Below are positions 21,711 through 32,075 of a DNA stretch of 64,000 bases, piece by piece. Below the pieces are notes generated by a model. It saw only the letters and a list, made by a program, of their open reading frames with translations. It had not been told where the DNA came from and ran no database searches. The stretch's first letter is position 1. Every line of letters starts with the position of its first letter. A program made the position numbers and the translations under genes. The stretch covers positions 1 to 64,000 of the forward strand of contig NZ_JAOEGB010000012.1 in NCBI RefSeq assembly GCF_025420585.1. The letters run 5' to 3'. The stretch is from Planotetraspora sp. A-T 1434 (GTDB taxonomy: Bacteria; Actinomycetota; Actinomycetes; Streptosporangiales; Streptosporangiaceae).

Positions 21711-21829
21711 GTGATCATGCACGAACTCCTGGAGTAGCCGTCTGAGCTGCTCACATGGTCGCCGTGATCTGGCACAAGTTCCTTGGTGCCGGCGTTGACC
21801 TGCGAAAGCCCCGTTCGTGATCACGCGCC
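21711..21829 (+). repeat. Array A of the GTGATCATGCAC element (3 units, 53-bp period)
   Basis: Unit starts at 21711 (GTGATCATGCAC), 21764 (GTGATCTGGCACAAGTTCC) and 21817 (GTGATCACGCGCC) are spaced exactly 53 bp. The tail of unit 2 (CCTGCGAAAGCC) resembles the tail of units in array B (CCTGCGCAAACCC). All are in the + orientation, in the 491-bp gap between the LURP-one and rho-like genes. The rest of the gap has no recognisable gene. Confidence 0.75.
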
Positions 21830-22002
21830 GCCCTCTCATCTGGCGGCTCCGGGAGCAACGCGTCGGACTCCTCCTCCATGTCGGCGCCCACCGCACCGCC
21901 GAGGAGGCTCCACGCGACCTACGTCGCGACACTCTCACGCCGCCGCCCGGTCGCCCCTCCCATGGAACCTGGGCCGGCATCCCAACTCAAAAGGAAACGA
22001 TC

Positions 22003-23154
22003 ATGACAACTACCCTCACCGCCGCTCCGCGGTCCCGCGTGGACGGCGGCAAAACCGGGTCCGGCCGTACGGCCGAGCGGCCCGCGAAACCCGTGTCCAG
22101 CACGGGCGTCCTCGACGTCACGGCGAAGAACGCCGTCCTCCGCGCCCGCGGATACCTGCCGGGGCCGAACGACGTCGTCGTCCCGCTCACTCTGGTGCGC
22201 GACCACGGCCTGCGCTCCGGCGATGTCGTCTACGGCACGTCCCAGGGAGGCAGGCTGACCGCTGTCGACACGGTGAACGGCCTCCCTCCGGGGCGGCCCC
22301 GTCCCGACTTCGCCGACCTCGTCCCCTTCCATCCCGACGAACGGCTCCGCCTCGAAACCTCGCCCGGAGTGCTCGCCACCCGCGTGATCGACCTGCTGGC
22401 GCCGATCGGGAAGGGGCAGCGCGGCCTGATCGTGGCGCCGCCCAAGGCAGGCAAGACCCTGCTCCTCAAGGCGATCGCCAACGCGATCACCACCAACCAC
22501 CCCGAATGCCATCTCATGGTCGTGCTCGTCGACGAGCGGCCCGAAGAGGTCACCGACATGCGGGAATCCGTCAAGGCCGAGGTCATCGCCTCGACGTTCG
22601 ACCGGCCCGCCCAGGAGCACATCGCCGCCACGGAGCTCGCCGTCGAGCGGGCCAAGCGCCTCGTCGAGCTCGGCTACGACGTGGTCATACTCATCGACTC
22701 GATCACCCGGCTCGCCCGCGCGTACAACATGGCCGCCCCCAACGGCGGGCGCATCCTGACCGGCGGCCTCGACGCGCGAGCCGTACACCCGCCGAAGCGC
22801 GTGCTGGGCGCGGCCCGCAACGTGCTGGACGGGGGCTCGCTCACGATTCTCGCGACCGCGCTCATCGACACCGGCTCGAAGATGGACGACTACCTCTTCG
22901 AGGAGTTCAAGAGCACCGGCAACATGGAGCTGCGGCTCAGCCGGAGCCTCGCCGAGAAGCGGGTCTTCCCCGCTGTCGACGTCACCGGATCGGGCACCCG
23001 GCGGGAGGAGCTCATGCTCGACGCCGCCGAGCTGCCCCTCGTCTGGAAGCTCCGCAAGGCGCTGCACAACCAGGAGTCGTTCGAGCCGTTCCTGGCCACG
23101 ATGAAGAACACCGGCTCGAACGCCGAGCTGCTCCTCACCCTTCGGAACGCCTGA
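22003..23154 (+). CDS. rho: Short Rho transcription termination factor paralogue
   Basis: 383 residues, against about 420 in E. coli and over 600 in primary actinobacterial Rho. It has the central and C-terminal parts: RNA-binding region (about 40-90: GYLPGPNDVVVPL...LRSGDVVYG), Walker A APPKAGKT at 145-152, Walker B VVILIDSITRLARAYN, and the Q/R-loop region GGLDARAVHPPKR. The N-terminal Rho_N helix bundle is missing; the first 30 residues are polar and disordered-looking. It is probably a second Rho, because the long primary gene usually sits beside prfA/atp genes. AAGGAAAC precedes the ATG at 22003. A GTGATCATGCAC array lies upstream and another about 320 bp downstream. Confidence 0.88.
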   Translation: MTTTLTAAPRSRVDGGKTGSGRTAERPAKPVSSTGVLDVTAKNAVLRARGYLPGPNDVVVPLTLVRDHGLRSGDVVYGTSQGGRLTAVDTVNGLPPGRPRPDFADLVPFHPDERLRLETSPGVLATRVIDLLAPIGKGQRGLIVAPPKAGKTLLLKAIANAITTNHPECHLMVVLVDERPEEVTDMRESVKAEVIASTFDRPAQEHIAATELAVERAKRLVELGYDVVILIDSITRLARAYNMAAPNGGRILTGGLDARAVHPPKRVLGAARNVLDGGSLTILATALIDTGSKMDDYLFEEFKSTGNMELRLSRSLAEKRVFPAVDVTGSGTRREELMLDAAELPLVWKLRKALHNQESFEPFLATMKNTGSNAELLLTLRNA

Positions 23155-23476: not shown

Positions 23477-23772
23477 GTGATCATGCACAAAGTCCCGATC
23501 ATAGCCGCCGGCCAGGGCCCACTCCTTCCGTGATCATGCACGGGTTCCCCGTCATGGCGGCGGCCTGCGGCAACGTCCGGGTGATCATGCAGTTCCGCAC
23601 CCCGCATGATCACGGGCGGCGTAAACCCAGGTAGCGAGGGACATGCCGGAACCTGCGCATGATCACGACGCGGGTTTGCGCAGGACACGCAGTCACGCGG
23701 GGAACCTGTGCATGATCACGACGCGGGTTTGCGCAGGTCAGGAAGGCCCCGCGGGAATCTGTGCATGATCAC
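23477..23772. repeat. Array B: seven GTGATCATGCAC elements, two convergent half-arrays
   Basis: Forward units start at 23477, 23530 and 23581 (spacing 53, 51). Reverse units have their first base at 23772, 23719, 23666 and 23613 (spacing 53 each). The core is GTGATCATGCACAGGTTCC. Reverse units also share a spacer containing CCTGCGCAAACCCGCGTC. The array fills the 325-bp gap between two convergent genes and contains no gene. A transcript through it could fold back on itself. Confidence 0.9.
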
Positions 23773-23777
23773 GGCGA

Positions 23778-24851
23778 CTAGGTGCCGATGGGGTGCCAGA
23801 CGGTTTTGGTTTCGAGGAATGCCGTCATGCGGCCGGTTCCCGGGTCCGCCAGCCAGTCGACCTTGGCCGCGGGCGGCCGGAGGACGCGCTTGAGGTTCTC
23901 GGCGGCGAGTTCCTCGCACGTGACCGCCAGCTCCGCGTCGGCGCCCGTGAGGTCGATCGCGTTGACGTCCATGTGGCCCGCCAGCCACGGGGCGATCTCC
24001 GCGGCCGAGCCGGTGAGGATGTTCACCACGCCGCCCGGCAGGTCGGACGTGGCGAGCACCTCGGCCAGCGTGATCGACGGCAGCGGCGCCCGCTCCGACG
24101 CGACCACCACGCACGTGTTGCCCGTGACGATCACGGGAGCGATCACGCTGACGAGCCCGAGCAGCGGGCCCATCGGCGGAGCGACGACGGCCACCACACC
24201 GGTCGGCTCGGGGCTCGAGAGGTTGAAGTACGGCCCGGCGACCGGGTTGGCTGAGCCCTGGATCGCGCCGATCTTGTCCGACCACCCGGCGTACCACACG
24301 AGCCGGTCGACGGCCGCGTCCACCAGCTCGGCCGCCTTCTTCGCCGAGACGCCGTCGGCGTCCACCACCTCGGCGACGAACTGGGCCCGGCGACCCTCCA
24401 GCATCTCCGCGACGCGGTAGAGGATCTGGCCCCTGTTGTACGCGGTGGCGCCCGACCAGCCCGGGAACGCCTTGCGGGCGGCGGACACGGCGTCCCTCGC
24501 GTCCTTGCGGGACGCCTTGGACGCGTTCGCCAGGAACTCACCCTTTGAGGAGGTCACCACATAGGACCTTCCGCTCTCCGATCGCGGGAACGCGCCGCCG
24601 ATGAACAGCTTGTACGTCTTCCGCACGGCCAGACGCTCCATTGCCTGGGCGGCCACACGCTCACTCATCGAAGGATCCAATCTGGAGTGGCCGGGCCGGC
24701 CGGTAGGTCTGGCCGCACCGGCAGACTCCGCCCCGGTGGGCGAACCAGCCATGCCGTACGGCGAAGCGCTTCGAACGCTGGGCACGCGTGTAGCCGTAAC
24801 CCGCGCCGGCCCTGGCCCGGCGGACGAGGCGACGGCGGCGTCTGTCGTCAC
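23778..24851 (-). CDS. Aldehyde dehydrogenase superfamily protein lacking the catalytic domain
   Basis: 357 residues from a GTG at 24851 that overlaps the preceding stop as GTGA. A conserved start at 24668 (MSERVAAQAMERLAV) is the main alternative. Homology to ALDH covers the NAD-binding half (YKLFIGGAFPRSESGRSY to PLPSITLAEVLATSDLPGGVVNILTG). Where active ALDHs have the catalytic Glu (LELGGK) and Cys, this protein reads AIDLTGADAELAV and then stops after about 55 residues. It is therefore probably non-catalytic. It follows a complete ALDH and deoC in one operon, so it may pair with the active enzyme. Confidence 0.8.
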   Translation of the reverse strand: MTTDAAVASSAGPGPARVTATRVPSVRSASPYGMAGSPTGAESAGAARPTGRPGHSRLDPSMSERVAAQAMERLAVRKTYKLFIGGAFPRSESGRSYVVTSSKGEFLANASKASRKDARDAVSAARKAFPGWSGATAYNRGQILYRVAEMLEGRRAQFVAEVVDADGVSAKKAAELVDAAVDRLVWYAGWSDKIGAIQGSANPVAGPYFNLSSPEPTGVVAVVAPPMGPLLGLVSVIAPVIVTGNTCVVVASERAPLPSITLAEVLATSDLPGGVVNILTGSAAEIAPWLAGHMDVNAIDLTGADAELAVTCEELAAENLKRVLRPPAAKVDWLADPGTGRMTAFLETKTVWHPIGT

Positions 24852-31715: not shown

Positions 31716-32075
31716 GTGATCATGCACAGGTTCCCGTATAGCGCTCCGACGTGCCCAAACACCGACCGTGATCATGCGCGGCTTCCGGCATGGCGCCCCC
31801 GACGTGCCCAAACACCGACCGTGATCATGCGCGAGTTCCCTGAGCAGTGGTCCAGCCTGCGGAAACGCCAATAATGATCATGCAATTCGCGTCGAATACC
31901 TACCGCCGCGCATGATCAGGGCAAGGCTCCGGCGGGGCGGCCTGGATTTCAGGGAAGGCGTGCACGATCGCGACCGGCGGTTGCGCTGGCAGCTCAGGAG
32001 TCAGGGAAGGTATGCATGATCACGACCGGCGGTTGCGCTGGGAGCTCAGGAGTCGGGGAAGGTATGCATGATCAC
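31716..32075. repeat. Array C: eight GTGATCATGCAC elements, two convergent half-arrays
   Basis: Forward units start at 31716, 31768, 31821 and 31874 (52, 53, 53 bp). Reverse units have first bases at 32075, 32023, 31971 and 31919 (52 bp each). Unit 1 is GTGATCATGCACAGGTTCCC. The reverse copies share a near-identical spacer (CCAGCGCAACCGCCGG), and forward copies 2 and 3 share CGTGCCCAAACACCG. The array lies between murB and the riboswitch, and its edge is 14 bp past the murB stop. Confidence 0.9.

Follow-up and report, generated by a model that had tools for sequence, protein, structure and literature searches.

The ends of Mu- and Tn7-type transposons each carry several inward-facing transposase sites, and the DNA-uptake sequences of Neisseria come in dialects. 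Among extragenic repeats, the REP motif is given, in the accessible part of its description, as a palindrome with a GTAG or CGTC tag at one end (PMC3733652), and REPIN or BIME elements appear, in the accessible parts of three papers, as short, high-copy extragenic motifs in hairpin-forming inverted doublets that persist for long times (PMC3116915, PMC2817692, PMC3733652).

The arrays described here were met in a 64-kb window, the whole stretch of Planotetraspora sp. A-T 1434 DNA that was analysed (64,000 nucleotides), and resemble each of these systems in part. With REPIN and BIME elements, as far as those partial descriptions go, they share high copy number, extragenic place, inverted pairs, hairpin potential and long persistence; however, they are runs of two to six sites at a fixed 53-bp step, not tagged palindromes, and no RAYT (Y1) transposase was found in A-T 1434. 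Like bacterial MITEs they are non-coding, have inverted ends and are dispersed as full-length copies, which occupy many loci and face either way, but their ends are runs of phased sites, target duplication was not seen and a parent transposase was not found. They share with Mu and Tn7 several inward sites per end, three being commonest, whereas they carry no cargo and Mu-transpos_C was not found in A-T 1434. Their lineage dialects of a short motif and inverted pairs after genes recall DNA-uptake sequences, although array sites are confined to phased intergenic arrays. We do not class the family as REP, MITE or Mu/Tn7, since for each of these a defining feature is lacking or open. The earlier note knew of no named family for this structure, and no Rfam family was found for the array element; among the literature matches listed, as far as their accessible text goes, no paper dealt with the motif or with Planotetraspora repeats. 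We propose, as a reading with about an even chance of being right, that the arrays are a dispersed non-coding DNA element with two inward multi-site ends, of miniature mobile type and bound by a putative protein, most likely a trans-acting recombinase.

Array B and its neighbours

The earlier note had described array B as three forward (F) units facing four reverse (R) units at a period of 53 bp, with one step of 51, each half lying directly 3' of a stop codon in the sense of that gene. All seven units were recovered where claimed (Table 1), the steps are 53 and 51 bp on the F side and 53, 53 and 53 bp on the R side, and the placement behind the stops is correct for this locus. Across the window, 26 core matches with at most two mismatches compare with a mean of 4.38 and a largest value of 10 in 100 shuffles. 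At array C no stop codon precedes the F half. At 382 aa, the rho-like protein beside array A (window 21996-23154) is a short paralogue, to which Planotetraspora genomes have one 77-80% and one 65-66% match, the latter in a longer frame. A phage or plasmid origin was considered and rejected, as the number of viral contigs with the tandem pattern was 0; array B had no match among the plasmids searched, and array C none among the phages searched.

Table 1. Arrays, cores and flanking frames in the window (+ and - in array formulas denote F and R sites).
Feature	Position	Strand	Remark
F core 1, GTGATCATGCAC	23477..23488	+	0 mismatches
F core 2	23530..23541	+	0 mismatches
F core 3	23581..23592	+	1 mismatch
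Array B apex (F core 3, short loop, R core 1)	23581..23613	.	21-bp step
R core 1	23602..23613	-	2 mismatches
R core 2	23655..23666	-	1 mismatch
R core 3	23708..23719	-	0 mismatches
R core 4	23761..23772	-	0 mismatches
Flanking ORF, 95 aa	23165..23452	+	stop 24 nt before F core 1 of array B
Flanking ORF, aldehyde-dehydrogenase-like (by eye)	23778..24656, longest frame to 24851	-	end 5 nt from R core 4
Second array (array A), F only (+++)	21711..21828	+	upstream of rho-like gene
Third array (array C), ++++----	31716..32075	.	between two - strand genes

Census and anatomy of the repeat unit

The exact 12-mer core occurs 552 times (271 + 281) in the 7.78-Mb genome of A-T 1434, against 0 for the reversed pattern, which bears out the genome-wide excess that the earlier note had proposed to look for. 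Exact cores are unevenly spread, with 132 on contig C1 (L031-L069) where an even spread would give 54.6. For the census we used C1 (768,793 bp, 769 kb) and 400 kb of a second genome, G022, scoring sites by a position matrix and genes by a simple ORF scorer (659 on C1, with gene starts only approximate). Matches to the matrix number 373 on C1, compared with 7 when the sequence is reversed. Once near-palindrome overlaps were removed, 348 matches remained, and two peaks that these overlaps had produced, F-R at 49 bp and R-F at 4 bp, were gone. Arrays of at least two sites number 67 and contain 297 of the 348 sites: 36 are F-then-R, 15 F only, 14 R only and 2 include an R-then-F step, and the commonest forms are +++--- (11 of 67), +++ (8) and --- (7). 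The 400 kb of G022 hold 13 arrays, six F-then-R, two F only, three R only and two with an R-then-F step.

Tandem unit lengths on C1 and in the window (51 bp, 5; 52 bp, 34; 53 bp, 85; 54 bp, 3) confirm that the 52-53 bp spacing recurs in other copies, and the matches establish the anatomy of the unit, namely the core GTGATCATGC, a TTC at positions 17-19 and, at positions 34-39, a second block close to GACCTG. Successive blocks are 33 bp and then 20 bp apart, about three plus two helical turns, so that by arithmetic, at 10.5 bp per turn, the sites would lie on one face of the helix. In 13 of the 36 apices of A-T 1434 there is a 39-40 bp step with a common inner sequence. An inner sequence near GACGAGGGTGCGCCCGACGGACGGACAC occurs, in both orientations, in about a third of A-T 1434 apices (C1 79147, 352182, 454799, 580312 and others). 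A hairpin within the unit, pairing block 1 with block 2, looked plausible in A-T 1434 and Planotetraspora and was rejected because, by eye, block 2 stays near GACCTG in the g71 and g35 genomes, where block 1 has a changed second half.

Position and orientation relative to genes

Five of the 67 C1 arrays lie inside predicted genes, and of the 62 intergenic ones 21 are in convergent, 38 in tandem and 3 in divergent gaps. Arrays are thus enriched in convergent gaps (P about 1e-4) and depleted in divergent ones (P 0.014 by gap number, 0.0002 by bases), and the enrichment at gene 3' ends that the earlier note had put forward as a check is present. Its observation that each half reads in the same sense as its gene does not extend to a general rule: one-sided arrays in tandem gaps run 10 in the sense of the genes and 7 opposite (P 0.63). 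In convergent gaps a count of 17 vs 14 adds nothing, because a one-sided array there necessarily agrees in sense with one of its two neighbouring genes and runs against the other, and the same-sense pattern of convergent gaps follows from the fixed F-then-R order. In A-T 1434, G022 and the window, the gene ends on the TGA of the core itself at 10 of 81 same-sense borders, the next highest offset reaching 5.

Conservation between species

Between P. silvatica and P. mira, 235 kb aligned at 95.8%. Ten P. silvatica arrays with at least two cores were followed, and cores stand at the same place for nine in P. mira, nine in G237 and eight in G239; for the tenth, P. mira has other DNA at that place. 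This demonstrates stable inheritance among Planotetraspora species. In G239 the eight shared arrays have fewer units, one being a single core in a 4.4-kb segment. MAFFT alignments of the nine arrays shared by silvatica and mira give 7/450 substitutions in the cores, a rate lowered, perhaps by half, since the search pattern requires intact silvatica cores, against 194/1263 with 0 gap columns in array bodies and 143/2149 with 154 gap columns in the flanks. The corresponding values for silvatica and G237 are 15/417 with 34 gap columns, 339/1121 with 146 and 280/2024 with 336, and many of the array gaps are absent whole units. Positions 17-19 and 36-40, which are free of the pattern constraint but were picked after the table was seen, differ at 4/200 sites vs 64/350 at positions 20-33 (25 unit pairs).

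In BLAST alignments, gap columns amount to 6 per 1800 sites in arrays and 374 per 21,238 in other intergenic DNA. Bodies change by 15.4% (MAFFT) vs 4.3% in intergenic DNA and 4.6% (62/1347) in array-free convergent gaps (both BLAST); candidate causes of this fast change are that copies exchange sequence, that bodies are a hot spot, or that constraint acts elsewhere. As read from these alignments, what is conserved is the DNA sequence (the core with the TTC, and the GACCTG block) and its spacing, not a fold, while the DNA between drifts.

Dispersal: paralogues, filled and empty sites

Whole-element paralogues are demonstrated for 18 of 70 arrays (67 on C1 plus three in the window), in groups of 12, 4 and 2; the group of two joins array B to an array at C1 651045. 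The element of the group of 12, about 262 bp long in the 3+3 form, is found at different loci and in both orientations; homology runs past its tips by 4 and 6 bp (medians) and never by more than 46. Filled and empty orthologous sites are demonstrated after rdgB, where the array of A-T 1434 occupies a 384-bp gap and the gaps of four Planotetraspora genomes measure 46, 46, 46 and 85 bp, those of G108 and G128 being 47 and 36 bp. At a further locus, site 22, A-T 1434 has ++--, three Planotetraspora genomes have +++ and one has a single core; G118 has +++---, its core being GTGATCTTGCAC, with relatives on both sides, and G108 and G128 are without an array. At the loci examined, among which there is no close filled and empty pair, no target-site duplication was seen, and the gaps examined held no autonomous element sharing the array ends.

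Distribution and lineage dialects

Tandem cores at 51-54 bp occur in 19 of 341 family genomes, with 0 in the reversed control. A-T 1434 has 521, and all five g23 (Planotetraspora) genomes have 140-741. In g71 (inferred Microbispora) they are present in 5 of 15 genomes at 4-115 each, and both g35 genomes have them (40 and 193); G128 has 2, and five further genomes have one or two, which is chance-like. Two g60 genomes contain the exact 12-mer 28 and 31 times without any tandem pair. Among the matches listed, the named genomes are those of all five Planotetraspora species and a single Microbispora bryophytorum. In 394 genomes of the class, the tandem pattern was found in 16 and F-R pairs in 13; outside the family, the convincing cases of the tandem pattern are G373 (9) and G432 (10).

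The tip GTGATCWTGC is also found in distant Actinomycetes, with a lineage-specific second half and other rhythms. GTGATCWTGCR is present 417 times in G373, 343 in G432, 98 in G491, 458 in G243 and 169 in G034, the reversed control giving 0 except for 1 in G373. After GTGATCWTGC the second half reads ACAGRTTCCC in A-T 1434, ACAGGTTCGG in Planotetraspora, AGTTTGTCGCA in g71, AATCCCGCCACCC in G373, AGATCCTGGG in G432 and ACGTTCGCCCC in G491. Same-strand neighbours less than 200 bp apart number 23 in 400 kb of G373; their steps span 32-172 bp, with 37 bp the most frequent (6 of 23), and an R-then-F step under 200 bp is absent. Some R-F pairs are present in G491. Five genomes (G399, G414, G080, G145 and G153) have palindromes of 57-60 bp in which the tips GTGATCWTGC are constant and the arms vary but, by eye, stay complementary; they are seen at L322, L323, L328, L332 and L333, and no direct flanking repeat was seen beside them.

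We tentatively suggest an Actinomycetes-wide site system, a possibility we think somewhat unlikely, in which one protein lineage would recognise the constant half-site GTGATCWTGC together with a lineage-specific half in phased inward arrays at gene ends, and would form a complex that structures the chromosome or recombines in trans, a system different from REP, MITE or known nucleoid sites. The dialects offer a co-variation handle for finding the binding protein, and the split within g71 offers a clean genetic comparison.

A proposed miniature element with two multi-site ends

In the mobile-element reading, the element would consist of two inward-facing runs of binding sites, in A-T 1434 mostly three and three, joined by a short apex. 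A putative sequence-specific protein, most likely a recombinase supplied in trans, would act on these sites as on multi-site transposon ends; copies would insert mainly at gene 3' ends, sometimes with the core TGA as stop codon, and one-sided arrays may be lone remaining ends. Several observations argue for this: the fixed inward order, with R-then-F steps in only 2 of 67 arrays; the 52-53 bp spacing, with cores and positions 17-19 and 36-40 held while bodies drift; whole-element paralogues whose homology fades near the tips; the filled and empty sites after rdgB; stop codons supplied by the core; and the lineage-specific second halves.

Other observations count against it. Neither Y1_Tnp nor Mu-transpos_C was found in A-T 1434, target-site duplication was not seen, and host genes lie between separated F and R runs. 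Movement is slow, since nine of the ten P. silvatica arrays have a counterpart at that position in P. mira, and the motifs kept at old sites suggest a local role, of which a dead copy would have no need. Array bodies of silvatica and G237 are gapped, largely by missing whole units, and, within C1 and the window, a whole-element partner is known for only 18 of 70 arrays. For the candidate partners, Y1_Tnp (PF01797) had 0 matches in A-T 1434 (a 98% complete draft) and was positive in 14 of 37 genomes, carriers and non-carriers alike. Mu-transpos_C, with 0 matches in A-T 1434, is present in 6 of 38 genomes, namely 6 of 22 carriers vs 0 of 16 non-carriers (P 0.03 without kinship correction); a Mu-like partner may exist in some lineages. 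As regards origin, the data favour a miniature element with two multi-site ends over a host-kept array, and for present use a host-kept array is possible.

Hundreds of equal, phased, inward sites per chromosome would imply a dedicated DNA-binding protein not seen before. If mobile, the arrays would add a class of high-copy bacterial miniature elements without RAYT; if host-kept, they would be a candidate chromosome-organising site system.

Host-maintained arrays and other alternatives

According to the strongest rival, which we consider possible but rather doubtful, the phased sites are coated by an abundant DNA-binding protein, which organises the DNA at gene ends or insulates it, mobility belonging to the past and arrays being kept for their local effect. 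The core, second block and spacing are indeed kept at old orthologous sites while bodies drift, array positions are common to Planotetraspora, orientation is independent of gene strand, and exact cores are concentrated on C1. However, tandem cores are missing in 10 of 15 g71 genomes and in most of the family, and the array system is therefore dispensable; the occurrence of full-length paralogues in either orientation speaks for copying, and strong units have been freely lost in G239.

An RNA-level element, in which transcripts through the F and R halves form a long hairpin and so act as a bidirectional terminator, ending or protecting messages that come from either side, appears improbable. 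The earlier note had suggested that an RNA from either side can fold onto the other half, and a long fold is indeed predicted for array B, better than shuffles (z -6.0 and -4.5); arrays are enriched in convergent gaps, and the distant 57-60 bp palindromes have arms that, by eye, vary yet remain complementary. The fold does not appear as a conserved RNA, however. In 44 arrays of A-T 1434, the window and G022, the F and R cores show no covariation (apex z 1.8, P 0.06; outermost z -0.65), and the compensating changes expected of such a hairpin were not found. F/R agreement in the outermost post-core stretch is above shuffled (z 2.75, P 0.0025) in a test confounded by the pooling of A-T 1434 and Planotetraspora dialects. 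Moreover, 29 of 67 arrays have a single orientation only and their sequence and spacing are conserved too; bodies lack indels between sister species, which RNA loops would tolerate; and at site 22 in Planotetraspora a separate hairpin, by eye, adjoins the array. The unbiased orientation of one-sided arrays and the missing F/R covariation thus indicate that a folded RNA is not what is conserved, and with the gap pattern also against it, we rejected an RNA hairpin as the conserved entity or main function.

REP or REPIN repeats driven by a RAYT (Y1) transposase are a very remote prospect: the high copy number, extragenic place, inverted pairs and, in several lineages, hairpin capacity fit, but Y1_Tnp was not found in A-T 1434, four of five Planotetraspora genomes, G118, G113, G128, G373, G432 or G491, it occurs in eight genomes without tandem cores, and the array unit is not itself palindromic and lacks a GTAG or CGTC tag. 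DNA-uptake signals with species dialects, which would account for constant and lineage-specific halves and hundreds of copies with inverted pairs near gene ends, are hardly credible given that 297 of 348 C1 sites are in arrays, only 5 of 67 arrays lie in a predicted gene, and the rhythm is a rigid 53 bp, for which we know of no role in DNA uptake.

Separated runs and intervening genes

F and R runs were also considered as ends of a gene-carrying transposon, a candidate rejected as the intervening genes, in the gaps examined, are host genes. Separated pairs at 250-3000 bp are F..R in 15 cases vs R..F in 11 (P 0.28), or 9 vs 4 for runs of at least two (P 0.13); below 1 kb, a cut-off chosen post hoc, the pairs listed for A-T 1434, G022 C13, G022 C2 and G373 are 7 F..R vs 0 R..F. 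A UbiA/MenA-like gene (by eye) is flanked by arrays in two distant genomes, at L321:41-913 in G373 and L139:2389-3241 in P. silvatica, possibly by chance. A TypA-like gene (by eye) lies between separate F and R runs in at least one Planotetraspora species (L129 2808-5087), and spacing like that of this locus is also seen elsewhere in Planotetraspora (L136, L158).
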